The notes under the pieces: generated by a model | The model's database searches: none | What the model was told of the DNA's origin: nothing | Seen by the model: only the letters and a program-made list of their open reading frames with translations | Assembly (NCBI GenBank): GCA_017515105.1 | Contig: JAFWHO010000001.1 | Coordinates: 124,001-188,000 of the forward strand | Length of the DNA stretch: 64,000 bases | Reading direction: 5' to 3' | Source of the DNA: Candidatus Saccharimonadota bacterium | GTDB taxonomy: Bacteria; Patescibacteriota; Saccharimonadia; Saccharimonadales; Saccharimonadaceae | Made by a program: the position numbers and the translations under genes | Shown here: in pieces, positions 40,312 to 56,171 of the stretch | How the letters are laid out: the number at the start of each line of letters is the position of its first letter | How positions within the stretch are numbered: the first letter of the stretch is position 1

Positions 40312-43300
40312 CTAAGCGTCAGGGTAATTGCCTTCATCCGACAAGAGTTCTACCAACTGATCGTAAAGCTCAAGGTTGTCCGCATTCGGTCTATCATCAT
40401 GATAGAATCTCTCATATTTCCTCACAATAACCGAATCCTCACCAAACCATTCTTCAAGCTGGAACCTCGTATCCTCAAAGAATATCATCGGTTCTTCACT
40501 AGAAATATTATTCCTTAGTATCTCCATCTGATTCAAATACGACGCTCTATCTGCGGCCGAATAAACCGGTGTGCGTTCTTCCGTCTCTTCGCCCTCAGAG
40601 TTCATCGTGCGCCTTTGAGCCTGTCGCCTACTATTCCTCTGATCGTAGTAATCCACTTCTCGCCTCAACGCTTCCTCGTCATCCAGAAGCACCAATTTAC
40701 GTAGCCAGTCTTTTGCGTTAATAGCGGTACCACTCGGACGCGTGCGATAAATCTGTTTCAACTTACCAGTTTCACCTAGGACCTTTCGTATTTGCTTACC
40801 AGCCAACGATAGCTTGAGATCCTTCAAATCGTTAGCGCGCTTCTTCTCTGCATCCTCAGGAGATTCATTGCTATACCTCGTTTGGATCTCTGCACGCTTT
40901 TCATCATATTTACGACGACGTTCCCTACTACTTTCTCCATCCGAGCTTCCATTAAGGTAATTTTCAAGCATATGTTCTACCATAGCATCCCTAAAGTCAG
41001 TTCTCATACTAAGAATCTGCCCAGTCGTTTGGTCCTTAAAGTAATCACTAGCCATACCATTATAATAATCTTTAACTCTATCCTTATGGTCTCTAAATTC
41101 TTCATTTTCCCAAACCGGCTTCAAATTGTAGCTGATGTTACCGTCAGCATCGTACTGCGGCTCCATCTCATAACCAGTCCAGAATTTCACACCACTGCTG
41201 ATCTGTTCGCTACCAGACATCCACTTAAGACTGGCCGACAAGAATGCAGGCTCAAACGCCCTCTGCAAATCTTCACGCCTCTTCAAATAACCTTCCACAT
41301 CCCACGGCTTAGTCTTGTTCTTCGAGTCATACCCATACGCCTTCTTCAACGAGTCATCCAAGCTCGAAAGCGCCGTACGCTCAATGTTATCCAGCGACGT
41401 ACCTTCAAGCAACTTAGCCGCATCCTTCTTAGCATACATTCTCGTGCCATCCGGCTCAACATGATAACCCCTTATATACTCATCGTATGTGACATACTCT
41501 TCTTTACGATCACTCTTATTATAGACCTTTGCAGTCTCGAGGTTAATATGCTTACCAAACCTCCTTAGGAACGGGTCGTTATCCTTCACTTCAAACATCA
41601 AGAAACTAGCCAACGCCTGTGATGCATGAGTACCCAACTTCACACCACCACCGATGTTTTTCGTGAAAATATTATCAAGCTGCAATTTCAACATATCGGT
41701 ATCACCACGCTGGTTCAATACACGGAGGCCAGCCACGATAGAATCGATATTCTTAGTAGCATTAACTTTCCCAGTTAGCTCATTCAACCTATATTCCACA
41801 TCCTTGGTTGGCGGTGTTAGGTCAAAGTATTTAAACATCTTCGCATCAACAAGTTTCTTCTGAGCATCATAAGCTTGCGCCGCATATGCCGCCGCGTACT
41901 GGGTATCGTGAAGGTCGCCCTCCATAATACCCTTAGCCATTTCATAACGCGCCGCAGCTTCTGCTCTTTTTTCTGCAGATCCGAGATCGTGACGTTTATA
42001 ACCCTTGGTGTCCTTATTCTCCTCATCAAAATGCGCATTTACAGCATCCTCCATCCTCTGGTGGAAGCTAAGTGCATTGTTATATTCAATCGTCTCGCCT
42101 CTAGCTTTCTCCATCTTCAAATTATCACTTGCATTAATATTCTCAACATCAAGCTGCTTTAGTCTCATAGCTAGAGCGGTCTTCTTTGGCTGAAATTCAA
42201 GATCACCGAGACCCTTGTTCAAATTGTTCTTGTGCCTCTCAATAGCCCTATTATATACCGCATTATCCGCCTGTTGCTCATATTCCCTTGCTCCTCTCTT
42301 ATTAGCAGCACCATCCTGATCATAGGCCCTAGACGCCTTATAGGCAAGACCTCTGTTCTTAATCGTCTCCTGGTTCTCAGCCATCTCCGCCTCTCTGGCG
42401 ACCTTCCTATTTGACAAATACTGCATCAAAGCTAGTGACGGCGTGTACGAACGCCTAGACGCCAAATGCTTTGCCTTGGTGGCTTGGCGATGCGAATCCG
42501 CCCAAGTCCTCGTAGATGCCAACGGCTTGTCGGCAAGTCCACGCATTTTGGTATTGATTGTACCAAGGAACGTACCAGACATTTTCATTAGTGACCAGGA
42601 AAAGAACAGCGGGAACACCTGAACGGCAATACCAACAATCACCCAGAATGCATCCTTTGCACCCGCAATAATCGCAAAACCAGCCAAGCTAGACGCTCCG
42701 AACAGCAGCGAGAACACCGGATAGAACACCAACATCTGCACTAGCAAGTCTTTCCACTTTTTAAACCACTTCTCTGTATTTGGTAGAACATTCGCCACTA
42801 TAGCAAGCGGTGCCACCATCACAAGTAGTGCCACCACTGCCTGACGAAGAGCAATCGTAATAAGCCCCGATGCAACTGCCACTACAGCACCAAGCACGAT
42901 AGGAATGAGCATCCAAATTGTACCATTTTCAAACGATACCGCCCCAGCCCCCACCGTAATCATCGCGCCACCAGCAAGAGCACCATACGCCTCAGCGTAA
43001 GTAAGATTCATGCTCTCGACCGCTTCAGGCGACACTTCCATATTCGCAATTACAGTATCTTGCACCGAAGTAAACACCCCTCGAAGTCCATCACCAATAA
43101 TGTTAGACAAATCAATACCTAGTTGACAAACCAAGAAGCTGAGGTTCACCAATACCGCCGCCACAATCAGCTTCGGCAATGCCTTCTTTAGTCCATAGTT
43201 ATTAATCCCTAACCCCGTAAGCTGCGAATAAATCACCACAAGCAGGAAAATGATAAAGATAATATTGGTTAGCCCCCTACAATACTTCCAAATTTCATAA

Positions 43301-43767
43301 ATCGGCGTGCCATCCTTGGCTTCAACCGGGTTCACTACCAATAATTTCTCGATGGTACCATAAAGCCAATCCACCGCCTCAGCAATTTTCCCTGTAGTCG
43401 GACAAACCAACCAACCAATCGCTTCAAGATCAGACTTACATTTATTCTCCCCCATCTTCTCCTTTTCCTTCTTCTCCTTCTCCTTCTCTTCCTGTTCCTT
43501 TCGTTCCCTTTCTTCCTCCTCCTTCTTCCTTTCCTCTTCAGTCTTCTCTACGGTAGCCTCTTCGCCCCCGTTGTTATCACTATTTTCGTCAGCACTATCA
43601 GACCCATCAATAGTAGTTATCTCTGTCGTCTCAGGTTCCGCATAGGCATCACTCACAAGAAGCGTACTCGTAATACCAAAAACCCCACCAATCATCACAA
43701 TAAAAGCAAAAAAGTACCCTAAAAAGGACTGTTTGATTCTCTCTTTAAAACACTTCTTTTCTCTCAT
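40312..43767 (-). CDS. VirB6/TrbL-like polytopic membrane protein with long cytosolic tail
   Basis: About 1151 aa from the ATG at 43767. A signal or membrane segment (SFLGYFFAFIVMIGGVFG) and an E/K-rich linker precede a cluster of about six or seven membrane helices (about 150-420; IIFIIFLLVVIYSQLTGLG, LPKLIVAAVLVNLSFLVCQL and others). Roughly 700 residues of charged helical tail follow. This layout fits VirB6/TrbL channel components found beside PrgI-VirB4 in CPR genomes. The GTGTGCTATAAT promoter is about 30 bp upstream. An in-frame ATG at 43971 is rejected because it adds a cysteine/tryptophan-rich stretch upstream of the promoter. Confidence 0.75.
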   Translation of the reverse strand: MREKKCFKERIKQSFLGYFFAFIVMIGGVFGITSTLLVSDAYAEPETTEITTIDGSDSADENSDNNGGEEATVEKTEEERKKEEEERERKEQEEKEKEKKEKEKMGENKCKSDLEAIGWLVCPTTGKIAEAVDWLYGTIEKLLVVNPVEAKDGTPIYEIWKYCRGLTNIIFIIFLLVVIYSQLTGLGINNYGLKKALPKLIVAAVLVNLSFLVCQLGIDLSNIIGDGLRGVFTSVQDTVIANMEVSPEAVESMNLTYAEAYGALAGGAMITVGAGAVSFENGTIWMLIPIVLGAVVAVASGLITIALRQAVVALLVMVAPLAIVANVLPNTEKWFKKWKDLLVQMLVFYPVFSLLFGASSLAGFAIIAGAKDAFWVIVGIAVQVFPLFFSWSLMKMSGTFLGTINTKMRGLADKPLASTRTWADSHRQATKAKHLASRRSYTPSLALMQYLSNRKVAREAEMAENQETIKNRGLAYKASRAYDQDGAANKRGAREYEQQADNAVYNRAIERHKNNLNKGLGDLEFQPKKTALAMRLKQLDVENINASDNLKMEKARGETIEYNNALSFHQRMEDAVNAHFDEENKDTKGYKRHDLGSAEKRAEAAARYEMAKGIMEGDLHDTQYAAAYAAQAYDAQKKLVDAKMFKYFDLTPPTKDVEYRLNELTGKVNATKNIDSIVAGLRVLNQRGDTDMLKLQLDNIFTKNIGGGVKLGTHASQALASFLMFEVKDNDPFLRRFGKHINLETAKVYNKSDRKEEYVTYDEYIRGYHVEPDGTRMYAKKDAAKLLEGTSLDNIERTALSSLDDSLKKAYGYDSKNKTKPWDVEGYLKRREDLQRAFEPAFLSASLKWMSGSEQISSGVKFWTGYEMEPQYDADGNISYNLKPVWENEEFRDHKDRVKDYYNGMASDYFKDQTTGQILSMRTDFRDAMVEHMLENYLNGSSDGESSRERRRKYDEKRAEIQTRYSNESPEDAEKKRANDLKDLKLSLAGKQIRKVLGETGKLKQIYRTRPSGTAINAKDWLRKLVLLDDEEALRREVDYYDQRNSRRQAQRRTMNSEGEETEERTPVYSAADRASYLNQMEILRNNISSEEPMIFFEDTRFQLEEWFGEDSVIVRKYERFYHDDRPNADNLELYDQLVELLSDEGNYPDA

Positions 43768-43911
43768 ATAAAAACGCCCCCAATAAAGGCTTGTCGTAAT
43801 TATAGCACACATAAGCTTTTTTGTCAATACAAAAATTGGCCTTTTTCCCCAAGAACACCATCTTGACAAAACCCCATTTTTACCTTCATTTTTAAGCAAA
43901 AGCACCAGCTC

Positions 43912-43940
43912 TTGACAGCCAAAATGCTTAACCATATAAT
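43912..43940 (+). promoter_or_regulatory. Consensus sigma-A promoter of the WXG100 operon
   Basis: TTGACA (43912-43917), exactly 17 bp, TATAAT (43935-43940): both hexamers perfect, unlike the extended -10 promoters elsewhere. A strong AAAGGAGGT follows at about 43950 with no start codon at proper distance. The first gene begins 100 bp later. Confidence 0.9.
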
Positions 43941-44048
43941 AGTACCTGGAAAGGAGGTCCCTACACCACAATACACACTCTATAAAAACTCTAATACAGA
44001 AAAAATAATATGACAGAAGTAATCGCTGGAATAAAAAAAGGAGAATTA

Positions 44049-44384
44049 ATGGCTCTCAGTGTTGAAATACTGAGATACCATGACGATATTGGCACAATCT
44101 TCGATGAGCTTAATAATCTCATGAAAGAATTGCCAAATAATTATCGGAGTCCTTCGTGCACAACAATCATTTCACAATACAACGCGCTCAAATCCCAGTA
44201 CCCAAATGTCAAGTCCAATCTGAGAAACTACTCAAGAGACTTGCAAAATGTAGTTAAGTTCTGGGAAATGAGAATGAAGAAAGCCGCCGTAGGTTTCAAC
44301 GAGGCAGCCAGCGAAACACAACAAAGTATCAAGTCGGAAAAAGAAATAATACCAAATCAACAGTCCACAGAAAGGAGAATATAG
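44049..44384 (+). CDS. Small helical protein, first gene of the T7SS-like operon
   Basis: 111 aa from the ATG at 44049, chosen for AAAGGAG seven bases before it (an earlier ATG at 44010 has none). All-helical composition (IFDELNNLMKELPNNYRS, LRNYSRDLQNVVKFWEMRM), no signal peptide and no WxG turn. Size and position next to a WXG100 gene recall the helical chaperone or partner proteins of T7SSb substrates, but family membership is not shown. It is one base upstream of the next gene. Confidence 0.6.
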   Translation: MALSVEILRYHDDIGTIFDELNNLMKELPNNYRSPSCTTIISQYNALKSQYPNVKSNLRNYSRDLQNVVKFWEMRMKKAAVGFNEAASETQQSIKSEKEIIPNQQSTERRI

Positions 44385-44385
44385 T

Positions 44386-44703
44386 ATGGGGACAGATATC
44401 GGAGCATTAAGCGATGCAGTAAAAGCATCCGGTGCGGCAGAATTAATTAAACAAATCAATACGATAGTCATAGACAAAGGGGCTAAACAATTAGAAGCAC
44501 ACTGCAATACGTTATGCACTGGGCTTGATCCTATTTGGGTAGGTCCATCCGCCGATAACTTTAAGGCAAACATGAAATCCGATGTTGGCAAAATCGTCGA
44601 AGCTCTTACAACAACCAAAAACGCGATCGAAAACGAAATCAATGCCGCAATGCAAAAAATCATGGAAGCCGAAGAAAAATTAGTCAATAAATATGGAGAA
44701 TAA
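44386..44703 (+). CDS. WXG100-family protein (EsxA-like) 1
   Basis: 105 aa, close to the 100-aa family norm. Two amphipathic helices are joined by a turn with WVG (in PIWVGPSADNFKANM, W at about residue 51), followed by F and a long second helix ending in KYGE. W-x-G near the middle with a following hydrophobic/F position defines WXG100 proteins, which leave the cell as helical-hairpin dimers through type VII secretion using EssC. AAAGGAG precedes the ATG. No C-terminal YxxxD/E signal is obvious. Confidence 0.8.
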   Translation: MGTDIGALSDAVKASGAAELIKQINTIVIDKGAKQLEAHCNTLCTGLDPIWVGPSADNFKANMKSDVGKIVEALTTTKNAIENEINAAMQKIMEAEEKLVNKYGE

Positions 44704-44717
44704 AAGGAGAGAAACAA

Positions 44718-45182
44718 ATGACACAAAATACAATAGATGTAGCGAACAAAACTATCAATATTGGAGAAGATGTCTCTGAAGCAAAAAAAGGCATTGAAAA
44801 CATCACAGGTATAACTAATTTCAAAGGTTTCACTCCTAAGCAGGATGTCGTCGGTATGGCGAGCGAAGAACAAGTAAATGGTTATGTAAAGTACATAAAC
44901 ACCTATGTAGAAAATGTCAACTCTATTCTTGATGGGATGAATACAGAAGTAGATATAAATCTCGCATTCAAAAACCAAAAACTAGAAAACGATATTCGCA
45001 CATTCCTTGATGAATCAAAGAAACTATTACAAAGATACGTTAATGCACTCAATAAAGAAAGCGTAAATCTTCTAAGTGCACAAAGCGCATGGAAATCAGT
45101 ACTCGGTGTAGCCGGAAGCAACTTTTCCAAAGATGCCTCTTCGATTTCAAACCTAGCCAAAAATATCGGCGATATCGGTTAA
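44718..45182 (+). CDS. Helical protein of the T7SS-like operon
   Basis: 154 aa, no signal peptide or membrane helix. It is predicted mostly helical (NGYVKYINTYVENVNSILDG, DIRTFLDESKKLLQRYVNAL) with one central-to-late tryptophan (AWKSVLGVAG) but no WxG. AAAAGGAG precedes the ATG; it is 14 bp after the first WXG100 gene. It may be a longer ESX-like substrate or an accessory partner; the family is not recognised. Confidence 0.6.
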   Translation: MTQNTIDVANKTINIGEDVSEAKKGIENITGITNFKGFTPKQDVVGMASEEQVNGYVKYINTYVENVNSILDGMNTEVDINLAFKNQKLENDIRTFLDESKKLLQRYVNALNKESVNLLSAQSAWKSVLGVAGSNFSKDASSISNLAKNIGDIG

Positions 45183-45208
45183 ACAACAATTATTAGGAGA
45201 ATTTTACA

Positions 45209-45667
45209 GTGACTACCAAGGCAGATTATCAAGAAAACATTAGAAAATATAACATTATTAAGGAACAACTGGGTAAAATTACTCCTAAATTATCGTCGGC
45301 GTCACCACTTTTAGGTAGTGTCAGTCGTGAGATTGGGACTACCTATAAAGTGAATGGCGACAGTGCTATAATTACTTCCCGCGCTGACAGCCTTAAAAGA
45401 ATCGTCAACACGACCTATTCAAATATAACCAAAATAGTGCTCCCTGCCCTAGGCAATGCCATCCAAGGTGCAAAAACCGAAGTACAAAAAATAGAAGCAG
45501 CCGAAGCAGAAGCAGCACGCCTAGCGGCTGAAGCAGCCGAAGCAGAACGCCAAGCAGCCGAAGCGGCCGAAGCAGAACAAACTACAACACTGCCAACAGA
45601 TCCTAGCCAAGTTCATCCATCGACGGACCCGAACAAGCTTCGATACAAAAGAGGAGCACAAGAATGA
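45209..45667 (+). CDS. Helical protein with Ala/Glu repeat tail, T7SS-like operon
   Basis: 152 aa beginning at GTG with TAGGAG upstream. Residues 1-90 are helical (YNIIKEQLGKITPKL, ADSLKRIVNTTYSNITKIVL). Residues 92-125 form an A/E-rich coiled coil (EAEAARLAAEAAEAERQAAE), then a polar tail. Its stop overlaps the start of the second WXG100 gene (ATGA), indicating coupled translation and perhaps a partner relationship, as often seen for Esx pairs. No known domain is recognised. Confidence 0.6.
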   Translation: MTTKADYQENIRKYNIIKEQLGKITPKLSSASPLLGSVSREIGTTYKVNGDSAIITSRADSLKRIVNTTYSNITKIVLPALGNAIQGAKTEVQKIEAAEAEAARLAAEAAEAERQAAEAAEAEQTTTLPTDPSQVHPSTDPNKLRYKRGAQE

Positions 45668-45948
45668 TTTCATATATTAACACGAGCGAAGTTGAAAGAA
45701 TCGCGACAGAAATGTCTAAACGCATCAACACCCTAGACGGTTATTTTAACTCCCTATTCAAAAGACTCGAAAATGTCCCAGATGTTACCAGAGAATGGGT
45801 TGGCGACTCATCAAAAAAATATTTTAGCACGCTCGCACGCGACAAAGTAGCATACCTCAACCTTGTTAGTGATCTAAAAAAAATCAGCAAAGAGCTAAAA
45901 AATGAAGCATCCAGCACAGAAACTCTCATCACAAAAATTAATAAATAA
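45664..45948 (+). CDS. WXG100-family protein (EsxA/B-like) 2
   Basis: 94 aa. A helical hairpin with the turn EWVGDSSKKYFSTL: W-x-G at about residues 44-46 followed by the hydrophobic pattern typical of the second helix. The N-terminal helix reads VERIATEMSKRINTLDGYF. It is a second, diverged WXG100 paralogue in the same operon; it could form a heterodimer with the first or with the coupled upstream protein. GAGGAG precedes the ATG. Confidence 0.8.
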   Translation: MISYINTSEVERIATEMSKRINTLDGYFNSLFKRLENVPDVTREWVGDSSKKYFSTLARDKVAYLNLVSDLKKISKELKNEASSTETLITKINK

Positions 45949-45960
45949 TGGAGCAAAGTA

Positions 45961-46278
45961 ATGACCAAGCTAGTTTATCCATCAAACGGCATCTGCCCAC
46001 AGTGCAAGTCCAATCTCAATGACTGCAAAAACGATCTATCATCGGCAGCTAACTATGCTATCTTTGACGTGCCAGAAGATTTCCCATACAAAGAATTCTT
46101 AGATAATCTACATACACTTCTAACAAATCTCAGCACTGGATGCGAGAATTTAAAAAATAAATTGAAAGCAATTGATACCTGCTACGAAACTCTTTCTGAA
46201 ACTTTCGAAACAAATACATCACGTTTAACCACTACGAAGATTACTAAAAACAGCCCAAGGGTAAAAATAACAGATTAA
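45961..46278 (+). CDS. Helical CPxC protein of the T7SS-like operon
   Basis: 105 aa. It opens with NGICPQCKSNLNDCKNDL, a CxxC pair plus further cysteines (C-x6-C), then two long amphipathic helices (YKEFLDNLHTLLTNLSTG, LKNKLKAIDTCYETLSE). There is no WxG. The cysteines could bind zinc or form a disulfide after export. TGGAG precedes the ATG. Function unknown; position argues for a T7SS-associated role. Confidence 0.55.
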   Translation: MTKLVYPSNGICPQCKSNLNDCKNDLSSAANYAIFDVPEDFPYKEFLDNLHTLLTNLSTGCENLKNKLKAIDTCYETLSETFETNTSRLTTTKITKNSPRVKITD

Positions 46279-46282
46279 ACCT

Positions 46283-47176
46283 ATGGAAAACGCCGAATTC
46301 TCAGTCAATCACGAAAATAATCAAGAAAACCTCGCGATGAATGAAGCGGAAATCGCAATCAATCATAGCGATGAAACATCGAGTAGCGACCAAATACCTA
46401 CTGCCCCAGAAAGTGAAACTACTATTAGCGACACAATTCCCGAAGAGACCCCAGCAAATCCAGCTATCGAAGAGATCGATTCCGAAGAAATCTCGATCAA
46501 TCATGGCGAATCACCGATTGCGCCTGCATCTGAAGCCTCCGCCGAAGAGACACCAGTTATGACAACTGATGAGACCCCAGTTGAAGAGGCGCCAATTACA
46601 TCGACCAACGAAGCGCCAACCGAAGAGACGCCAACTGCATCGACAAACGAAGCGCCAACCGAAGAGATACCAATTGCATCGAGCAACGAAGCGCCAACCG
46701 AAGAGATACCAACTGCATCGACAAACGAAGCGCCAACCGAAGAGATACCAATTGCATCGACCAACGAAGCGCCGACCCAAGAAATCCCAAACTTAGCGAG
46801 CCCTCCAGAAAAACAAGACAATTACCCTCTTCCTAACGAAAAAACCGCCCAACAAACTCCACCTCCTCCTCCAGAAACCAGTTCCGCGGCAGAAGTAAGA
46901 GCCGTAGAGGCAAACAAAAAATCTCAAGAAGAAGAGCAGGAATTATCATTACCAAGCCCAGAGACCAACAATAACAATAAACCATCCGAAGAGAGCTCGA
47001 AAGAACCTGACCCAAGTTCAAGTGAGACTAAAACCGAGCCGACCGACGTCACGTCAGATGTTTCGGAGCCCAGCCCAGAGCCATTGGAAAGCGAGGTAGA
47101 AACTCTCGCGCCAGACACTGAACTACCAGCAATTGGCTCAGAACCATCTGAAACGGAAGCAATAACCGAATCATAA
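46283..47176 (+). CDS. Acidic repeat protein closing the T7SS-like operon
   Basis: 297 aa, very rich in E, T, P, S, A, without signal peptide or membrane helix. Three N-terminal motifs share (V/I)NH (SVNHENNQ, AINHSDET, SINHGESP). Residues about 107-171 are five copies of a 13-aa unit of the type STNEAPTEETPTA. The rest is polar and probably disordered. No Shine-Dalgarno is seen; it starts 4 bp after the previous stop. It may be an extended secreted or surface spacer, or a cytosolic scaffold. A strong terminator follows, so it belongs to this operon. Confidence 0.6.
   Translation: MENAEFSVNHENNQENLAMNEAEIAINHSDETSSSDQIPTAPESETTISDTIPEETPANPAIEEIDSEEISINHGESPIAPASEASAEETPVMTTDETPVEEAPITSTNEAPTEETPTASTNEAPTEEIPIASSNEAPTEEIPTASTNEAPTEEIPIASTNEAPTQEIPNLASPPEKQDNYPLPNEKTAQQTPPPPPETSSAAEVRAVEANKKSQEEEQELSLPSPETNNNNKPSEESSKEPDPSSSETKTEPTDVTSDVSEPSPEPLESEVETLAPDTELPAIGSEPSETEAITES
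46602..46796. repeat. Five tandem 39-bp repeats (13-aa units)
   Basis: A unit containing AACGAAGCGCCAACCGAAGA recurs every 39 bp with a few substitutions, all in frame. Spacing equals the repeat length, so this is a coding minisatellite and not a CRISPR array. Confidence 0.9.
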
Positions 47177-47181
47177 AAACG

Positions 47182-47218
47182 AAAAAGACCCGAGCCAATA
47201 AGAGCTCGAGTCTTTTTT
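47182..47218 (+). terminator. Rho-independent terminator of the WXG100 operon
   Basis: AAAAAGACCCGAGC / GCTCGAGTCTTTTTT with one mismatch and a loop of about 8 nt. Confidence 0.85.
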
Positions 47219-47220
47219 GA

Positions 47221-47676
47221 CTATCCGGCAATGCCGAAGTAGTCAATCTCACCAAATTGTGTGTTGTACATTCCGATCATAGGGTTACTGCCCCTTTTGA
47301 TCTTTCCTTCGATCAGCCACTGCACGCTTGCGTGGTCGATATCATAGACATCCAACCCTTCCTGGAAGTATACTTCCCCATCATCAGTGAGGAATTTTAC
47401 CCCAGTAGCCGAATCCATAACAAGCTTATTGGTTTCGACTTGCTCCACAAATAGGCACTCACCGGCACCGGCCTCCTTAAGTCCTTCCACGAGGGCCGGG
47501 ATTTTTTCATCGCTAATGATGAATCCTATCTCCGAATTTTCAAGGAAAATTGTCTTTCCTTTAAGTGAAACCGGAGCCTCAACCTTGGTACTCGAAGACG
47601 CAAGAACAACACCCGATACTGCCAACACTGCTACTGCTACTACAACTACAAACGCCATAATTATTCTCTTCTTCAT
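47221..47676 (-). CDS. Hypothetical exported protein
   Basis: 151 aa. An N-terminal membrane or signal segment (KRIIMAFVVVVAVAVLAVSG, then VVLASSS) is followed by a small soluble domain (KGKTIFLENSEIGFIISDEK to QFGEIDYFGIAG). No family is recognised. TAGGAGGAAGC lies before the ATG and a TATAAT-type promoter near 47741. It sits between the convergent WXG100 operon and the yukD-essC pair, so an extracytoplasmic T7SS accessory role is possible but unproven; it does not resemble EsaA, EssA or EssB. Confidence 0.5.
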   Translation of the reverse strand: MKKRIIMAFVVVVAVAVLAVSGVVLASSSTKVEAPVSLKGKTIFLENSEIGFIISDEKIPALVEGLKEAGAGECLFVEQVETNKLVMDSATGVKFLTDDGEVYFQEGLDVYDIDHASVQWLIEGKIKRGSNPMIGMYNTQFGEIDYFGIAG

Positions 47677-47802
47677 AATAAGCTTCCTCCTAAAATCGGT
47701 GTATTAAAGAACAACAGTTACTAACTTATAGTTACTTAGCTAAATTATATCACACTTAAGCATAAATGTCAATAGTAATACCATATTTAGCCGATAAAAC
47801 GA

Positions 47803-47834
47803 CCCCAGTAATCAAGTCTCAACGATTACAGGGG
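47803..47834 (-). terminator. Probable terminator of yukD-essC
   Basis: CCCCAGTAATC / GATTACAGGGG with one A-A mismatch; read on the minus strand it is followed by GTCGTTTT. Confidence 0.6.
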
Positions 47835-47841
47835 TGCAACC

Positions 47842-48099
47842 CTATAATATCATCACCAGTTCAGTCCCATTTCTGATATCGGTATCTCGAATCAAAGTAT
47901 CACCTGAATAACATGCCCCAGTTTGCCTATTGATAAGATAGATTTCATCTTTTATCGGCAGTATACCAGATGACATACTATTGGTCAGCTGGTTTATTGA
48001 TTCCACAACTTCGCCCACAAATTTGTTGATCGGGATATAAATCTCGTATTCTTCCCCTATTTCCGGCACAAATAGTCTCACAAGTACTTTATATTCCAT
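47842..48099 (-). CDS. YukD/EsaB-like ubiquitin-fold protein
   Basis: 85 aa with a ubiquitin-like pattern: first strand YKVLVRLFVPEIG, second EIYIPINKFVG with a helix (EVVESINQLTNS), then YLINRQTGACYSGDTLIRDT and DIRNGTELVMIL. The last motif (I-x-N-G-T-E-L) is characteristic of YukD/EsaB of Firmicutes T7SSb, where it helps EssC-dependent secretion. The start codon overlaps the essC stop by a single base, so the two are translationally coupled. This linkage is the strongest support for both assignments. Confidence 0.8.
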   Translation of the reverse strand: MEYKVLVRLFVPEIGEEYEIYIPINKFVGEVVESINQLTNSMSSGILPIKDEIYLINRQTGACYSGDTLIRDTDIRNGTELVMIL

Positions 48100-51000
48100 T
48101 ATTCATCCTTATCCATCATAGTCTTAATTACCTTGTAGTCGCCGTCAGCAATATTAAATGCAAGACCTTCGAAGTCATACTTCTTATCTTCATCAAGTAC
48201 TTCTTTGCAGTCAAACAAGCTCTGGTTCGCAAGACCTTGCCCAAGCCACACCCCTCTGCTATTAAACATCGTAAACCATTCTTCAAGCTGCAACTGCCTC
48301 ACCTTGTCATAATCATCAATGAGCACATATGACAAATTCTTACTTTCTCCTAGATGTTCGAACACACTCTTGAACTTCTCAATCCCCTCATTGGATAAGA
48401 AATTCTTGTATTGACCCGCCCCAATAACCAAGCTGACAGCGTAATCCTGCGTATCTGTTCTAGTCCTAACATCATTTTCGAGCGCATCAAACAAAGCATC
48501 AAAATTCTCATTAAAGAACTTAATATCAAGCATCGGCTTCTTAAATATACCGAGCATATCAATAACACGCACTTTCACTTTGGATATTTTCGACATAATA
48601 GAGGCCAAAGCGTAGATAAACGAAATATTCTCTGCTATATTCTTCCCTGTGACAATGTGAAGCTTGTCGCTAATGAAATCATACCTGGTGATATCTTTCT
48701 CTCTAATATCGAGCCCTATCGGCACACCAGAAAGATCCGACAAATACTTAACAAGATCCTCACTCGTCACGTCATCTGGAATCTTTGTTAACTGCTTCAC
48801 CTTACACTTATAATAGTCAATGCATTGGTCCGCGTATGTCCTTAATGTCTCAATCTCCTTCTCCTCACTATCAATCAAAGCCGTCTGGAACTCACAATAA
48901 GAATCAACATTCGATGCGTCTGTTTTGCAAATGCCTCGGCCCACCACCTTTTTCGGAATCAATCCTTTTCTACAATCAGTCAAATTCCTATACTGGCTAT
49001 CATCCGCCATCTGCATCACAATATGATGATTAAAGAACTGCAACAATCTAGTACTAATAGCATTTGTAGTATTTGACGTGATTATAAAAATGATTCCATA
49101 TCTTGGCGCATCCCTAAACAATTCACCGATCGAATCCATCGCCCTAGGCAATACCTCACCAAAGACATCATAGTTATTTATAATCACCACCATCAAATTC
49201 ATCTTGTCCTGTTGAACTTTATTGTAATACTCAAACGAACCATTATAATCCGACAGGATGCTCTTTCGTCTTTCCATCTCTTCTGTTATAAGATCAAATA
49301 CTCCCGCCACTTTATCGATCTCATCCTGGAATACTACCTCGCCTACATGCGGAAATCTCGAAAACTTTTTCATCGTTTCCGTACCGAAATCAATAATATA
49401 ATAAGAAATCTCAGCAGGAGTATGATCAACAATACTAGACCATATAATTACGGACAACAATTTTTCAATACTAGAATCAGCCTTACCGACAATCGCTATA
49501 TTCCCACCCGCAAGATCAATCTTAAGAGGCCCTTGCTGCTGTTTTCTCGGTTCGTCATACTCACCGATAAGTGTTTCATAGGTGTATTTCGCCCCAGGTT
49601 GAAGCCCATATTTTTTCTTCAAATCAGCCAGCATCACAATCGGATCAATATTAGTAAGCCATAGCGGCTGCCCTTTCAAAGTCACCTGCTTACTCACTTC
49701 CGAGATGTAACCCACGATATTAATCAACTCCTCACCCTGAGCTTCCTTTACCTCGGCTTTCTCTTTTAATGATTCCACCACGCGACCAATATCATTAATA
49801 CATTCAATCGACTCATCAATTTGATGTTCAACCACATCCGAAGGATAGTACTTTGCCCCAGCCCAGGCAACTTGCCCCAAATTATAATAATCATCATTCC
49901 CTACCTGCAAATAGAACGTACCAGTTTGCTTGAGGTATGCTGCATCCGGCTTCTTCAAAATTTCCTGCGAATCACTTCTATCTTGAACTTTGAGGCATAC
50001 CTTAAACTTCGAGTTAGACCAAATCTGATCATTTACCACACCACTCGGCTTCTGTGTAGCAAGAATCAGGTGTACCCCAAGCGAACGCCCGACCCTAGCC
50101 GTCGATATTAACTGGTCCATGAAATCCGGCTCTTGTTGCTTAAGCTCGGCAAACTCATCACAAATAATCAGGAGATGACTCATCGGCTGATCCACCATAC
50201 CCTTCCTATAGTACTGCTGATACTTATAAATGTTCATCGACCCCTCTTTGAGTTTCTCACGCGCCGCGTTAAATATTGATTGACGACGCTTAAGTTCCGA
50301 CTCGATAGCAGAAATTGAACGGAAAATCTCCGATTTATCAAGGTTTGTAATCGTCCCAGCAAGATGCGGTAACTTAATATTCAATTCCGCATTCTCAAAG
50401 CTCTTCGCAAGACCGCCACCCTTATAATCGATCAACACAAATTGCACTTCATCCGGGCTAAAGTTCACCGCAAGAGATAGAATATAGGTCACGATCCATT
50501 CCGACTTACCAGAACCAGTCGTACCCGCAATCAACCCATGCGGCCCATAAGCTTTTTCGTGAATATCCATCGTGAATATCTCATTATTTTGATCAATCCC
50601 GATCGGCACCGAGAGGCTCACAGACGGATTATTATTATTCCATCTCGCAAGGCTGTTTAATTGCTCCACTCGGCCAAAATTATAAAGCTCAAGGAATGAT
50701 ACCGATTTTGGTAACTCAAATTTTCCCTTCTCAGCCGGCACTGGAATATTAGCAAGACTCTGAGCGACAAGATGCATATTGACTCGCCCATTGTTGAAAT
50801 CAGCCATGAACATTTCTTTGCCTGTATTAGTATCACCAGAAGTAACCGTCGAAGCTTGACGAGAAACAAAGACAAAATCAGTCGTCTCATTCGGTAGTGA
50901 CGAGACACTCTGTGTCGTCGCAATGATTGAAAACCCAATATTTCTCCTATAATGAAGTATCTTGTTAATTATCGGCACATTCCTGACCGCTGCCATATCA

Positions 51001-52670
51001 TCCACTACAAATAAATAATATGGTCTAAAATCCTTATAGCTTGATTTCGACTCATGTTCAGCCCCATCATCTTCAAGTTGTACTTCCTCGTCATTTGCCG
51101 CTCTCGCATTGAATACCTTCTCGAGTTCACCGGATATAGTCGTCATTTTATCCACCGAAGTACAAAAATACCTACTTGTCCTCTGCCCATTCCAGCAATG
51201 TGGCACCGCCCTAAGATAATCCCATTTACGTGGCTCTTTTGTGAAGACCACGATCTTAAGGTCATTATACGCATGGAATGTAAGAAGCTGCAAGAAAAGA
51301 CAGTCCATGAAGCTATTGACTATCCCACTATCACCCACAATTGCACTAATATTGCTTGTCTTCAAATCATAAAGAATTGGTGCAGCATCAATAGTCAATG
51401 CGTCGTTTACTGTCTTCTTTAAAGCCAAGAATAACGAATCGTCGTCGTCAATAGAAAATTGTTCCTTGGGTCTCTCAATCTGAATTGCCGTCGGTACTTT
51501 ACCAAGCCCCAGTCTAACGGTCAAGAAATCGCCATGGCTAATATTTCTCTGCCACAATTCCTTTGTCTTCCCCTCAATAATTGTCGCGCATTGCTCTGGC
51601 TCCGGATGGTTTTCTACCATCGTTTGCTTTTGATTTGCTTTAATAAAGTTAATCAAATTCTGTTTTTGGTTCAAGTACTCTTCGTACTTCTTCTGGCGTT
51701 TCTCTTCCTTTTTCCTCAGTCTTCGCTTGTTGAACTTTCGCGTAATCATTGGCCAAAGCAAGGTCCCAGTCAACGTAAGTATCATCGTACCAATAGAAAT
51801 GCCCATCATCATCTTACCGCCATTACCAGACGACGCAGACATAATCATTCCTATCATTGACATCACCGACACGCCCGCCATAGTGAGCTGTGGCCCAACC
51901 GTCAAAATCACCGGCATATCATTACCTTTGTCAGGCTCTGGCGGCGCATCAATCTCCACCGCCACTGGTTCAACCATATAATTAAGTCGTGGTGATTTAT
52001 AAAAATAATCCTTTTCACTATAAAGCGGCACCGCCTCCTGCGCAACTGGTTTTTCGCTACTCTTCATTAATGATGACGGCGCACTCCTCTCGCTCACCTT
52101 CAATTTGATCGTTTCCTTTTCGACCAATTCCTTCGAAGAGTCAATGAGTAGCTTCCCATTCAAGAAAATCACCTTTACGCCATAGAAGAAAATCGTATCC
52201 CCACTCAAAATCTCCTGCCCACTTCTCGCCCGCTCACCAGAAATGAAGAAAAACGGTGAATTGGTCTCAACCAGCCACCTGGAGTCAACCAGCTTAATTT
52301 GCATATATTCAGTCTTACTAAACTCCAACGGAAAATACACATCACAATTTGGGTCGGTGCCGATCGTCACAGCATTAAAAATATCGTATGACTTAAGCTC
52401 AGAGTTAAACCTCGGCGTCATAATCAGGAAGAAACTTTCCCCGCTGATCTTCGAAGTCAAAATATAAATCTTATAAGGCTCTAGCCTCGGTTGTTCAAAA
52501 TAAATATCCTTTGAAGAAAACTTATGCGACAGTTTAATGGTCCAATTATCTTTGTCAGCAATAATATTGGCAACCAGCTCGCCACCAATATACACCGGAT
52601 ACATACCACCACCTTTTGAAGATAAGACCTGCGAAACAAAAGCCCTATCATTGAAAATATGTACGATCAT
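48099..52670 (-). CDS. essC: EssC-like T7SS ATPase (FHA + FtsK/SpoIIIE domains)
   Basis: 1523 aa, matching the EssC length of about 1480-1500. Residues 1-180 hold FHA-like cytosolic domains (VTIGTDPNCDVYFP, GDTIFFYGVKVIFLNG). Two membrane helices lie at about 252-310, then a basic linker and a first degenerate ATPase-like region. The main FtsK/SpoIIIE domain has Walker A AGTTGSGKS (715-723), VLIDYKGGG and Walker B LLIICDEF (833-840). Two further modules are degenerate: GKADSSIEK near 1062 and VTGKNIAEN near 1340. EssC is the inner-membrane motor that recognises and exports WXG100 proteins. No EsaA/EssA/EssB gene is adjacent. Confidence 0.88.
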   Translation of the reverse strand: MIVHIFNDRAFVSQVLSSKGGGMYPVYIGGELVANIIADKDNWTIKLSHKFSSKDIYFEQPRLEPYKIYILTSKISGESFFLIMTPRFNSELKSYDIFNAVTIGTDPNCDVYFPLEFSKTEYMQIKLVDSRWLVETNSPFFFISGERARSGQEILSGDTIFFYGVKVIFLNGKLLIDSSKELVEKETIKLKVSERSAPSSLMKSSEKPVAQEAVPLYSEKDYFYKSPRLNYMVEPVAVEIDAPPEPDKGNDMPVILTVGPQLTMAGVSVMSMIGMIMSASSGNGGKMMMGISIGTMILTLTGTLLWPMITRKFNKRRLRKKEEKRQKKYEEYLNQKQNLINFIKANQKQTMVENHPEPEQCATIIEGKTKELWQRNISHGDFLTVRLGLGKVPTAIQIERPKEQFSIDDDDSLFLALKKTVNDALTIDAAPILYDLKTSNISAIVGDSGIVNSFMDCLFLQLLTFHAYNDLKIVVFTKEPRKWDYLRAVPHCWNGQRTSRYFCTSVDKMTTISGELEKVFNARAANDEEVQLEDDGAEHESKSSYKDFRPYYLFVVDDMAAVRNVPIINKILHYRRNIGFSIIATTQSVSSLPNETTDFVFVSRQASTVTSGDTNTGKEMFMADFNNGRVNMHLVAQSLANIPVPAEKGKFELPKSVSFLELYNFGRVEQLNSLARWNNNNPSVSLSVPIGIDQNNEIFTMDIHEKAYGPHGLIAGTTGSGKSEWIVTYILSLAVNFSPDEVQFVLIDYKGGGLAKSFENAELNIKLPHLAGTITNLDKSEIFRSISAIESELKRRQSIFNAAREKLKEGSMNIYKYQQYYRKGMVDQPMSHLLIICDEFAELKQQEPDFMDQLISTARVGRSLGVHLILATQKPSGVVNDQIWSNSKFKVCLKVQDRSDSQEILKKPDAAYLKQTGTFYLQVGNDDYYNLGQVAWAGAKYYPSDVVEHQIDESIECINDIGRVVESLKEKAEVKEAQGEELINIVGYISEVSKQVTLKGQPLWLTNIDPIVMLADLKKKYGLQPGAKYTYETLIGEYDEPRKQQQGPLKIDLAGGNIAIVGKADSSIEKLLSVIIWSSIVDHTPAEISYYIIDFGTETMKKFSRFPHVGEVVFQDEIDKVAGVFDLITEEMERRKSILSDYNGSFEYYNKVQQDKMNLMVVIINNYDVFGEVLPRAMDSIGELFRDAPRYGIIFIITSNTTNAISTRLLQFFNHHIVMQMADDSQYRNLTDCRKGLIPKKVVGRGICKTDASNVDSYCEFQTALIDSEEKEIETLRTYADQCIDYYKCKVKQLTKIPDDVTSEDLVKYLSDLSGVPIGLDIREKDITRYDFISDKLHIVTGKNIAENISFIYALASIMSKISKVKVRVIDMLGIFKKPMLDIKFFNENFDALFDALENDVRTRTDTQDYAVSLVIGAGQYKNFLSNEGIEKFKSVFEHLGESKNLSYVLIDDYDKVRQLQLEEWFTMFNSRGVWLGQGLANQSLFDCKEVLDEDKKYDFEGLAFNIADGDYKVIKTMMDKDE

Positions 52671-52821
52671 TTACAGTATCTATCCCATTCTTCCTTTACT
52701 GTCTTTTATAAGCATAACAATATTATACAAATTCCAACCTGTTAAGTCAATGAATTTTCGAAAAGAAACCTGGACTTTTTATAGGTTTATGATAAGATAA
52801 TTATATAAAAGAATTAACAAA

Positions 52822-53586
52822 ATGAATAAGATCCTCAAAAAAATATCCGCAGTTCTAATTTCGATGTCTAGCGTCCTTTTTGTTGCTTCTACCCCAGTAT
52901 CCGCCGCACAATATGTTGATGTCGGCAGCTGTTCAGAATCTTTCGCTGGTCTCACTTCATGGTGCTATGGTATAACCGACATTAATGACGAGACAACTCT
53001 AAAGACTAACATTTGGAAAATCGCCGCTAATGTTGCCGCCGACATTACCGTCCTAGCCGCCTATCTCGTCCTAGGATTCGTTATTTATGGAGGCTACCTC
53101 TATCTTCTTTCTGGCGGGGATGCTACCAAGCTCGCAAACGGCAAAAAGACTATTACTAACGCTTTCATCGGTCTCGGCATCGTTCTTACCGCAAACATTA
53201 TTTTCAATGCTCTTAGGTTTGTCCTAATTGGCGCAAATGGCACCCTTTCGCAATGCTACAGCGAAAAAGGTTGCGTTACAGCCGCAACTATGATTTCCGG
53301 TACCATCCAATGGGTTATTGGTGTCGCCGGACTTGTCGCCGCTATTTTCATTGTTATCGGTGGTATCTCGTATATGACTTCCTCTGGCGAAGCTGCCAAA
53401 GTTGAAAAAGCTAGAAAAACCATTCTCTATGCCGTCATCGGCCTCGCCATTGTCGCCCTCGCCGAAATCGTCACAGGCTTTGTTACTAGCGTCATCAACA
53501 ATGCCAGAACTCATGCCTACATTAACAACAGTTACATCTCATATCAAATAAACAAGGAGGAACAAAATGTCCAAAAAACTACTTAA
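52822..53586 (+). CDS. VirB2/TrbC-like pilin with two modules in tandem
   Basis: 254 aa. A signal peptide (KKISAVLISMSSVLFVASTPVSA) is followed by two copies of a two-helix pilin module. Module 1 has helices at about 70-95 and 112-135 with GGYLYLLSGGDATKL; module 2 at about 158-182 and 200-222 with GGISYMTSSGEAAKVEKARK. VirB2/TrbC proteins build the T4SS pilus and normally have one module. Four cysteines lie in the extracellular parts. Its end overlaps the next pilin gene by 20 bp. Confidence 0.8.
   Translation: MNKILKKISAVLISMSSVLFVASTPVSAAQYVDVGSCSESFAGLTSWCYGITDINDETTLKTNIWKIAANVAADITVLAAYLVLGFVIYGGYLYLLSGGDATKLANGKKTITNAFIGLGIVLTANIIFNALRFVLIGANGTLSQCYSEKGCVTAATMISGTIQWVIGVAGLVAAIFIVIGGISYMTSSGEAAKVEKARKTILYAVIGLAIVALAEIVTGFVTSVINNARTHAYINNSYISYQINKEEQNVQKTT
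53374..53450. repeat. 77-bp repeat in pilin genes, copy 1
   Basis: Nearly identical to 53837-53913 (offset 463 bp), covering the ATGACTTCCTCTGGCGAAGC to CTCGCCAT stretch that encodes the loop and second helix of the pilin module. Identity at synonymous sites suggests recent duplication or gene conversion. Confidence 0.85.
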
Positions 53587-53980
53587 AATAATTATGCCGG
53601 CAGTGCTATTACTTGCAAGTCTAGCATCGTTTTGCCCTGTCGCACCTACTCTTGCAGCAAAAGAACCAAACAGCAACGTCTGCAACCTTGATGTGCCGAA
53701 GTCCGTTAAAGAAGCAGCTGGCTGCAACAATAACGCAGACAAGGTACCCGGCATAGTCATTGGTATTATCAACGCCGTCATCAGTGTCCTCGGCTTAGTA
53801 GCCGTAGTGTTTATCATTATCGGCGGCATTTCTTACATGACTTCCTCTGGCGAAGCTGCTAAAGTTGAAAAAGCCCGGAAAACTATTCTCTATGCCGTTA
53901 TCGGTCTCGCCATCTGCGTCCTCGCTTTCGCCATAGTCAACTTCGCAGTTGGGATCATTAATAGCCCACCAACCAGTTAA
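53567..53980 (+). CDS. VirB2/TrbC-like pilin
   Basis: 137 aa. Signal peptide (KIIMPAVLLLASLASFCPVAPTLAA), a short cysteine-containing extracellular segment, and one two-helix module: VIGIINAVISVLGLVAVVFIIIGG, then ISYMTSSGEAAKVEKARK, then TILYAVIGLAICVLAFAIVNF. The G-x-Y-M-T/S-S-G-E/D motif between the helices is the typical TrbC/VirB2 loop in CPR genomes. AAGGAGG precedes the ATG. It is translationally linked to the two-module pilin and shares a 77-bp near-identical stretch with it. Confidence 0.85.
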   Translation: MSKKLLKIIMPAVLLLASLASFCPVAPTLAAKEPNSNVCNLDVPKSVKEAAGCNNNADKVPGIVIGIINAVISVLGLVAVVFIIIGGISYMTSSGEAAKVEKARKTILYAVIGLAICVLAFAIVNFAVGIINSPPTS

Positions 53981-54005
53981 TAATCATAAAAATAAGGATG
54001 AGCAC

Positions 54006-54034
54006 TTGCTAATTTTCAAAAATCGCATTATAAT
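54006..54034 (+). promoter_or_regulatory. Promoter of the third pilin gene
   Basis: TTGCTA, 17-bp spacer, TATAAT. It gives the 54062 gene its own transcription start. Confidence 0.7.
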
Positions 54035-54061
54035 ATAACCAAACTTAAATAAAGGAACAAA

Positions 54062-54373
54062 ATGAAAGATATAGTATCAAAATTCGCCGCATACACTTCT
54101 GGTGAACACAAAGTAAATACTTTTGGAAACGAAAAACCTCTAAACGAAACTATAGTTAACATCATTAATGCAGTTATTGGCGTGCTTGGTCTCGCTGCAG
54201 TAGTAATTATCATCATCGGTGGTATCAACTATATGATGTCTTCTGGCGAAGCTACGAAAGTCAAAAAGGCTAGAGATACTATATTATATGGTGTAATTGG
54301 TCTTGTCATTTGTGTCCTTGCCTTTGCTATTGTCAACTTCGTAATCGTAAACATTCTTAAAAGCGGTCAATAG
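54062..54373 (+). CDS. VirB2/TrbC-like pilin without signal peptide
   Basis: 103 aa. One module: IINAVIGVLGLAAVVIIIIGG, INYMMSSGEATKVKKARD, TILYGVIGLVICVLAFAIVNF. Unlike its neighbours it has a hydrophilic 33-residue N-terminus and no cleavable signal. It may insert by the first helix or need another route; it may also be an adapted subunit of a different pilus. AAAGGAAC precedes the ATG, and it has its own promoter and terminator. Confidence 0.8.
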   Translation: MKDIVSKFAAYTSGEHKVNTFGNEKPLNETIVNIINAVIGVLGLAAVVIIIIGGINYMMSSGEATKVKKARDTILYGVIGLVICVLAFAIVNFVIVNILKSGQ

Positions 54374-55055: not shown

Positions 55056-55766
55056 ATGCCAATTAATGTAAATAATACAACATTCGCTAGCATTTTGGAT
55101 CTTCTCTCGCCTCACTCTTGTAGGGGTTGTGGCCGTATCGGTGACGCTCTTTGTGATCATTGTAAAAAATACATTCTAGACCACCACCAAAATCTTTGTC
55201 CAATTTGCAAAAACACAAACGCTAGCGGCACTTGTCCCCATTGCAACAAAGTCAAGTCGCACGATCCCCTACCGCCCACTTTTATCCTTGGCGAACGCTC
55301 CGATCTCCTCGCCGCGCTCATTCACGACTACAAATACAAATCTGTCCGCCCCCTAGCTCACCATCTCGCTGATATGATAGACCAAATCCTCCCGCCCTTC
55401 ACTGGCCCCACTTTTATTGTTCCCTTGCCAACAATTCACCGCCACGTCCGCGAGAGAGGGTTCGACCATACTCTACTAATAGCCAGGCACTTAGCAAGAA
55501 AACGCCCCAATTTCTCAGTGCAGAAAGCTCTCATAAGGACCGACTCCAAAGTCCAAGTCGGCTCAAACATGAGAGACCGTAAAGCTCAAGCAAACTCCGC
55601 CTACGAAATAAATCATAAAGCTAAGCTAGACCCTCTAGCAAACTATATCCTCTTAGACGATGTCTGGACCACAGGCGCCAGCCTAAAAGCGGCAACCAAA
55701 AAACTCCGCAGTTGCGGAGTTTCCAAAACTACTTTATCAATTCTCGCTCTAAGCCGTCTCGATTAG
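55056..55766 (+). CDS. comF: ComF-family phosphoribosyltransferase-like protein
   Basis: 236 aa from the ATG at 55056. The N-terminal zinc-binding part has four CxxC pairs (CRGCG, CDHC, CPICK, CPHC). FILGERSDLLAALIHDYKYK follows, then the phosphoribosyltransferase fold: RERGFDHTLLIARHLA and the PRPP loop YILLDDVWTTGASLKAA. ComF is needed for DNA uptake in transformable bacteria, and the family is usually found with competence or pilus genes. It overlaps the convergent pilin gene by 18 bp. An ORF extension upstream to 54978 is rejected: it would overlap the Hsp20 start. Confidence 0.9.
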   Translation: MPINVNNTTFASILDLLSPHSCRGCGRIGDALCDHCKKYILDHHQNLCPICKNTNASGTCPHCNKVKSHDPLPPTFILGERSDLLAALIHDYKYKSVRPLAHHLADMIDQILPPFTGPTFIVPLPTIHRHVRERGFDHTLLIARHLARKRPNFSVQKALIRTDSKVQVGSNMRDRKAQANSAYEINHKAKLDPLANYILLDDVWTTGASLKAATKKLRSCGVSKTTLSILALSRLD

Positions 55767-56171
55767 ATAAGAGGTTTGCGCCTGTTCACCTGCAGACTTC
55801 GAACTCGGTAGTGCCGAAATTACAAAGTTCACGATTGCAAACGCTAGAAACGCAATAATAAGACCAATAATCGCATAGAGAACAGTATTTTTCGCATCGG
55901 TTACTTTCTTAGAGTCGCCACCAGATACAACATATTTAATACCACCAATAATTAGCATAATAACAGCAATAATACCTACGATATAAAGCACAGTGTTCGT
56001 AACTTGCTTAAACACACCAGTATCACCGAAAAGATCTTCTGGACATCCATCACAGCGTGCGGCTTCTGCGCCCTCTTGTAAAGTCATAGCAGAAACGCTA
56101 GGCATTAATACTAACCCAACCATCCCCGCAATTAATAATACTGGTAATATTACTTTTAGCATCTTTTTCAT
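55749..56171 (-). CDS. VirB2/TrbC-like pilin (fourth gene)
   Basis: 140 aa. Signal peptide (KVILPVLLIAGMVGLVLMPSVSA), a CxxC-containing extracellular segment (ARCDGCPEDLFG) and one two-helix module: VLYIVGIIAVIMLIIGG, IKYVVSGGDSKKVTDAKN, TVLYAIIGLIIAFLAFAIVNF. It is transcribed opposite to the other three from a GGTATAAT promoter just upstream, so it is probably regulated separately. Subunit of a T4SS-like pilus. Confidence 0.85.
   Translation of the reverse strand: MKKMLKVILPVLLIAGMVGLVLMPSVSAMTLQEGAEAARCDGCPEDLFGDTGVFKQVTNTVLYIVGIIAVIMLIIGGIKYVVSGGDSKKVTDAKNTVLYAIIGLIIAFLAFAIVNFVISALPSSKSAGEQAQTSYLIETA

Follow-up and report, generated by a model that had tools for sequence, protein, structure and literature searches.

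The window analysed here is a stretch of 64,000 nucleotides from a genome of Candidatus Saccharimonadota (811 kb in four contigs, 99% complete). Between a VirB6-like and a VirB2-like gene it carries an 8.7-kb cassette of ten genes, predicted to encode a type VII secretion system (T7SS). The genes and signals are, by position in the window:

40312-43971, minus strand: left flank, VirB6-like T4SS gene, outside the T7SS; homologues in 14/14 congeners searched
43912-43940, plus: promoter of the hairpin operon, sigma-70-type TTGACA-N17-TATAAT, 12/12 consensus positions
44010-44384, plus: ORF1, 124 aa, WXG100/LXG-like helical hairpin; Y-x-G turn in orthologues
44386-44703, plus: ORF2, 105 aa, WXG100 protein, W-V-G turn
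44718-45182, plus: ORF3, 154 aa, WXG100/LXG-like protein, F-K-G turn
45209-45667, plus: ORF4, 152 aa, hairpin-like, Ala/Glu-rich tail; weakest assignment of the six
45664-45948, plus: ORF5, 94 aa, WXG100 protein, W-V-G turn
45961-46278, plus: ORF6, 105 aa, helical hairpin without WXG (AlphaFold2); conserved C-terminal I-x-x-R-x-R-x-I
46283-47176, plus: ORF7, 297 aa, acidic, Pro/Glu-rich (alignment of 7 orthologues)
47182-47217, both strands: bidirectional intrinsic terminator between ORF7 and TMp; 15-pair stem and T tail on the minus strand, overlapping terminator on the plus strand
47221-47676, minus: TMp, 151 aa, N-terminal signal/TM segment and small outside domain
47744-47772, minus: TMp promoter, 12/12, TG ahead of the second hexamer
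47842-48099, minus: EsaB/YukD (TsxB)-like ubiquitin-fold protein, 85 aa (AlphaFold2 model, fold search, family matches)
48099-52670, minus: EssC (TsxC), 1523 aa, FHA region, two TM segments and three ATPase domains (TIGR03928, YukB homology)
52722-52750, minus: EssC-EsaB promoter, 11/12
52822-53586, plus: right flank, VirB2-like pilin gene; adjoins the VirB6 gene in cassette-free congeners

Seven plus-strand ORFs span 44010-47176 behind the first promoter, and the terminator at 47182-47217 closes transcription of both ORF7 and TMp. Three transcription units are predicted from these signals: ORF1-7, TMp and EssC-EsaB. An earlier note made from the letters of this DNA had described two WXG100 proteins and five others in one operon behind a perfect promoter; this observation is confirmed, and its coordinates were right for every gene that it named. 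It overlooked TMp, the tenth gene, with its own promoter, as well as the EssC promoter and the two-way terminator. The ORFs are not due to chance, since other genomes carry orthologues of ORF1-7, EsaB and EssC in an identical order and dN/dS between close relatives is 0.05 for EssC and 0.15-0.34 for ORF1-7 (TMp, 0.13). Judged by these ratios, the gene set is under purifying selection and its function maintained. No Rfam family was found in the locus. Right behind the -10 element of the operon promoter lies a strong Shine-Dalgarno-like AAAGGAGGT (43950-43958) that has no start codon within its range, the start of ORF1 being some 50 bases farther along.

ORF7 contains 24% D+E and 3% K+R and is probably disordered. 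Its conserved motifs are a repeated N-terminal E-[IF]-x-[IV]-x-H and a C-terminal YPLP...PPPPP, and a 39-bp tandem repeat within the gene (46592-46790; 5.1 copies, 89%) codes for TNEAPTEEIPIAS-type repeats. The Bacilli loci described below gave no match to ORF7, which was seen in Saccharibacteria only. TMp was likewise seen in Saccharibacteria only; orthologues, some of them with a lipobox, accompany most of the other Saccharibacterial loci; the cassette of the nearest EssC-bearing relative, a member of the same genus (G442), has none beside it.

Components of the predicted secretion machinery

The large ATPase matches the NCBIfam model T7_EssCb_Firm (TIGR03928) with 900 bits against a cut-off of 778, and its best PDB match is B. 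subtilis YukB (9qks, E 1e-144). FtsK and TraB models score it low, far under the EssC-specific match, so that the possibility by which the earlier note would have let itself be overturned, an FtsK or TraB protein in place of EssC, did not materialise. The locus encodes the EccC/EssC FtsK-type membrane ATPase by which a T7SS is broadly defined. A motif survey of the protein located an intact Walker A in the first ATPase domain only (residues 716-723).

The gene which overlaps EssC by one base had been called YukD/EsaB-like, and this assignment is confirmed by fold and family evidence. Alone, the protein matches YukD weakly; members of its family reach 4e-7. A fold search was used because a PDB sequence search with EsaB missed YukD: the first and second PDB matches of the AlphaFold2 model (pLDDT 94) are the ubiquitin-like domain of EccD5 from ESX-5.

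On the evidence of family profiles and invariant residues, ORF2 and ORF5 are WXG100 proteins, as proposed from their WVG turns. WXG100 is matched by 17 of the 23 ORF2 family members, W51, G53 and F59 are invariant across 23 orthologues, and EsxA is among the best PDB matches. ORF5 matches TIGR03930 (E 6.6e-7) and PF06013 (8e-5), both below cut-off; EsxA/EsxB are its best PDB matches, and W45 and G47 are invariant across 19 orthologues. A WXG100 protein is consequently encoded alongside the ATPase, the second part of the broad T7SS definition. The expectation that the WXG100 candidates would score in profile searches came true for families and for ORF5, although most single-protein matches fall below the curated cut-offs.

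The other small proteins, ORF1, ORF3, ORF4 and ORF6, are related hairpins, ORF4 being the weakest case. ORF1 matches ESAT6_2 (NF035934) with E 7e-6, below cut-off, and 5 of 23 family members match WXG100. Within the ORF3 family, DUF6507 is matched by 8/23, WXG100 by 5/23 and LXG by 3/23 (best 2e-5). Both families show weak LXG matches; the C-terminal toxin domain of an LXG toxin was not found in the locus proteins. Profile comparison linked ORF1 to ORF3 (95%; reversed controls about 8% or less), ORF5 to ORF6 (91%), ORF2 to ORF3 (69%) and ORF2 to ORF5 (68%; reversed-sequence controls for these three 10% or less). The AlphaFold2 model of ORF6 (pLDDT 85) has helices at 12-32 and 44-91; a search of the PDB with it returned nothing significant, EsxA, HP0062 and ESAT-6 being among the weak matches. 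The ORF4 family is conserved, with Y14 and L28 invariant, gave no convincing family match, and its profile relation to ORF1 and ORF6 is weak, hardly above controls.

EssB, EsaA and EssA, none of which the earlier note could recognise at the locus, were searched for with profiles, and B. subtilis was recovered as a control. In the whole genome and in seven EssC-bearing relatives, neither EssB nor EsaA gave a match over cut-off, which extends the earlier observation genome-wide; EssA gave sub-threshold matches only, taken together as noise. Among Bacillota of the wider EssC clade, 0 of 22 genomes held EssB over cut-off and 0 of 16 held EsaA. Two Bacillota genomes have sub-threshold EsaA-like matches which may be YhgE/Pip relatives. 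Membrane proteins beyond the reach of profiles could be encoded elsewhere in the genome.

Relatives, origin and subtype

Among 192 genomes sampled across the phylum, ours alone exceeded the EssC cut-off, the others scoring at FtsK level. Within the family, EssC is carried by 9 of 394 genomes, in 2 of 61 genera; a tenth match (G534), with 29% identity and one stop on a short contig, was set aside. A scan of named genomes returned MAGs of Saccharibacteria, several of rumen or gut origin, followed by gut Bacilli at 48-60% identity; viral contigs held no relative. The gut Bacilli have genomes of about 1.1-1.6 Mb and the cluster EssC-EsaB-ORF1-2-3-4-5-6. Four such clusters from uncultured gut Bacilli (L069, L073, L075 and L083) share these eight genes in the same order, with EssC about 60% identical to ours, and lack EssB. 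Two of them (L069, L075) have a membrane-anchored HExxH protein beside EssC, whereas Saccharibacteria have ORF7 and usually TMp instead; the HExxH protein was looked for in Saccharibacteria and not found. This protein is conserved, has 460-575 aa, one TM segment and the motif H-E-x-x-H, belongs to no Pfam family and adjoins EssC in Bacilli (L069 8551-9966; L075 8509-9960; L076 1112-2503; L079 14862-16280; L080 13352-14761; L086 1448-3175). It may be a counterpart of the mycosin protease.

Some Bacilli have two sets of the small genes, because one genome (G589) carries a complete ORF1-6 set (L198 77-2184) on another contig than its main cluster (L096). In a further genome (G590; L202/L203), ORF2-like sequences begin longer polymorphic proteins that are broken in part, with two small DUF4176-like proteins behind them. 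Iterating the profiles a second time led off into general WXG100 proteins, and the distant loci are not based on that round.

In a tree of EssC, rooted by midpoint, the eight Saccharibacterial sequences form one clade (support 100), sister to four Bacilli and nested among Bacillota. Because of this nesting, on which the direction rests, transfer from Bacillota to Saccharibacteria is the simplest reading; the cassette would have been gained horizontally from gut Bacillota as one block. That a T7SS-type locus lies in a Saccharibacteria-type genome, as the earlier note supposed, is corroborated by EssC, EsaB and the WXG100 proteins. Its further idea, a T7SSb reduced within the CPR lineage, is not supported: the EssB-less set is already present in gut Bacilli, EssC falls outside the T7SSb clade, and the absence of EssA, EssB and EsaA is known from other subtypes. 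Garrett and others described T7SSc-T7SSj in Bacillota and Actinomycetota, some of them without EssA, EssB or EsaA (PMC11217815), and hence this absence is not new by itself.

Six core parts of T7SSb are listed in a review (PMC10765036). Our locus resembles T7SSb systems (S. aureus Ess, B. subtilis Yuk) in EssC architecture, EsaB and a WXG100 protein, but differs in having no EssB or EsaA, no convincing EssA and several hairpins instead of one EsxA. Six small hairpin proteins stand here in place of the usual one or two. With three T7SSb references in the tree (Listeria, Limosilactobacillus, Enterococcus), our EssC clade is separate, on a long branch with support 100, and is placed near Clostridial T7SSe-like loci. 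With T7SSe (related T7SSd/j; PMC11217815) it shares an FHA-bearing EssC and EsaB (TsxB), and in two Clostridial loci of the wider clade (L126, L130) WXG100 genes directly follow EsaB. Both of these also have PP2C and DUF6382-FHA genes, and L130 additionally kinase and Ig-domain genes, a pattern known from T7SSe; no T7SSe kinase, PPM phosphatase, DUF6382-FHA or Ig-domain gene was found among our ten locus proteins. Our locus differs further in its six hairpins, a degenerate FHA phosphothreonine site and the missing Walker A of the second ATPase domain (D2). Clostridial EssCs retain the FHA signature GR..SxxH..NG[TS] and most retain the D2 Walker A; both are absent from the EssCs of ORF1-6-bearing Bacilli and of Saccharibacteria. 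Judging from this distribution, phospho-control was probably lost earlier than the transfer, a loss that comparison with the Clostridial outgroup would allow to be tested. The extra components described for T7SSf-T7SSj (PMC11217815) were not seen at the locus, which may nevertheless belong to one of these subtypes. The LXG-Lap modules of T7SSb are similar in that small helical partners lie beside an LXG-like protein, and the module is duplicated near EssC in relatives; the Saccharibacterial copies differ in having no toxin domain.

Proposed working and purpose

Saccharibacteria, of the candidate phyla radiation, live on other bacteria, and little is known of the means by which Patescibacteria act on other cells (T4SS, type IV pili). 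Published T7SSs come from Actinomycetota and Bacillota. For Saccharibacteria, Patescibacteria or CPR, the literature searched, in which subscription papers and preprints are thinly covered, yielded no account of a T7SS, WXG100 or EssC system. If the locus is a real secretion machine, it suggests a way for such symbionts to export proteins.

We read the locus as a compact T7SS machine acquired horizontally from gut Bacillota (probability roughly 0.7), with secretion and targets predicted. By analogy with established T7SS biology, EssC hexamers would form a membrane channel, EsaB would dock on the first ATPase domain, where the sole intact Walker A lies, and the channel would be opened and fed by pairs of hairpins that are exported in folded, dimeric form. 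In distant Bacillota the 4-5-6 block lies apart from the 1-2-3 block, which is duplicated in one locus (L091) and partly in another (L095), and in a Bacillota rumen MAG (L086) a second ORF2 domain forms the N-terminal part of a 547-aa protein that has a CHAP hydrolase (40 bits) at its other end. These arrangements suggest that 1-2-3 is a cargo carrier, which may act like LXG-Lap complexes, and that 4-5-6, kept together in divergent relatives, is a core export and gating set. The fusion in the rumen MAG (10262-11905) consists of a WXG domain, a long Ser/Thr/Gln/Glu-rich linker and the C-terminal CHAP, and is followed by a 185-aa TM protein; it is a candidate T7SS cell-wall-hydrolase effector, of which the TM protein is a possible immunity partner.

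In each of eight Saccharibacteria genomes the ORF2 domain occurs once and without fusion. For this reason the hairpins themselves, perhaps together with ORF7 and TMp, may be what reaches the outside or is put on display, neighbouring or host cells being the most plausible destination. Such a machine would manage with neither EssB nor EsaA, apparently with no EssA, and with no kinase, phosphatase or Ig-domain protein like those of T7SSe. As a natural system of this kind, with a single intact Walker A, it would show which T7SS parts are dispensable. Points against the compact machine are that nothing known spans the envelope past EssC, that Saccharibacteria have no known effector, and the weak matches of ORF4, ORF6 and most single WXG100 candidates given above. 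A more specific form of this proposal has nearly even odds in our estimate: an unnamed T7SS subtype of uncultured gut Bacillota (EssC, EsaB and six hairpins, no EssA, EssB or EsaA, phosphorylation control lost) crossed into epibiotic Saccharibacteria, where EssC alone would be the translocon and the hairpins would be exported toward the bacterial host.

The earlier note had thought of possible use against the host bacterium or in attachment to it. Another reading accepts the machinery and differs in its purpose, which might be surface display, adhesion or nutrient acquisition and not antagonism. It is a serious contender, with somewhat lower odds than the specific form just given: no toxin domain was found in the locus proteins, the missing ORF2 fusions agree with it, and TMp is an outside protein specific to Saccharibacteria. 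The tie between the ORF2 domain and a cell-wall hydrolase in the Bacillota relative speaks against it.

A canonical T7SSb whose EssB, EsaA and EssA have diverged past recognition, with TMp for example as EssA, is improbable. EssC does exceed a T7SSb equivalog cut-off, and TMp has an EssA-like size and one TM segment. We rejected this explanation on the separate EssC clade and the genome-wide searches, which returned no profile match over cut-off; moreover, no membrane gene is found next to EssC in every member, TMp being confined to Saccharibacteria and missing beside one cassette.

Insertion site

Six congeners have the VirB6-like gene adjoining the VirB2-like gene and no cassette, with one ORF between the two in one of them (L171); such empty sites permit comparisons with and without the cassette. 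Three genomic contexts were seen in independent assemblies: in G442 the cassette lies beside ftsZ, and in the other genus it lies among ribosomal-protein genes, after rpsH and before rplF (L046, L047, L048; gene names read from sequence). The T4SS neighbourhood is no sign of joint function, given these other sites and the uninterrupted T4SS locus of congeners. That EssC serves the neighbouring T4SS as an ATPase for coupling or DNA transfer, as the position between VirB6-like and VirB2-like genes might suggest, is very unlikely and was rejected on the same grounds, the EssC-specific match also lying far above FtsK and TraB. Contamination, chimeric assembly or a decaying relic, to which the rarity of the cassette and the prevalence of MAGs among its carriers might point, is just as improbable and was rejected: Saccharibacterial genes flank the cassette on both sides on one contig, independent assemblies show it in three contexts, EssC is monophyletic, and the ORFs are intact and under selection (dN/dS 0.05-0.34).

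In the stretches compared, the ends of the cassette show no direct repeats of at least 10 bases, and its G+C content (41% vs 44%) is slightly lower, within the range of other windows; it therefore bears no mark of a mobile element. Thymidylate synthase and dihydrofolate reductase look-alike genes are also present at two of the ribosomal-protein sites (L046, L048). Beyond the right flank of our cassette lie more VirB2-like two-TM pilin genes (53567-54373, 55749-56171), beside HSP20-type and ComF-type genes, in an order largely conserved in congeners.
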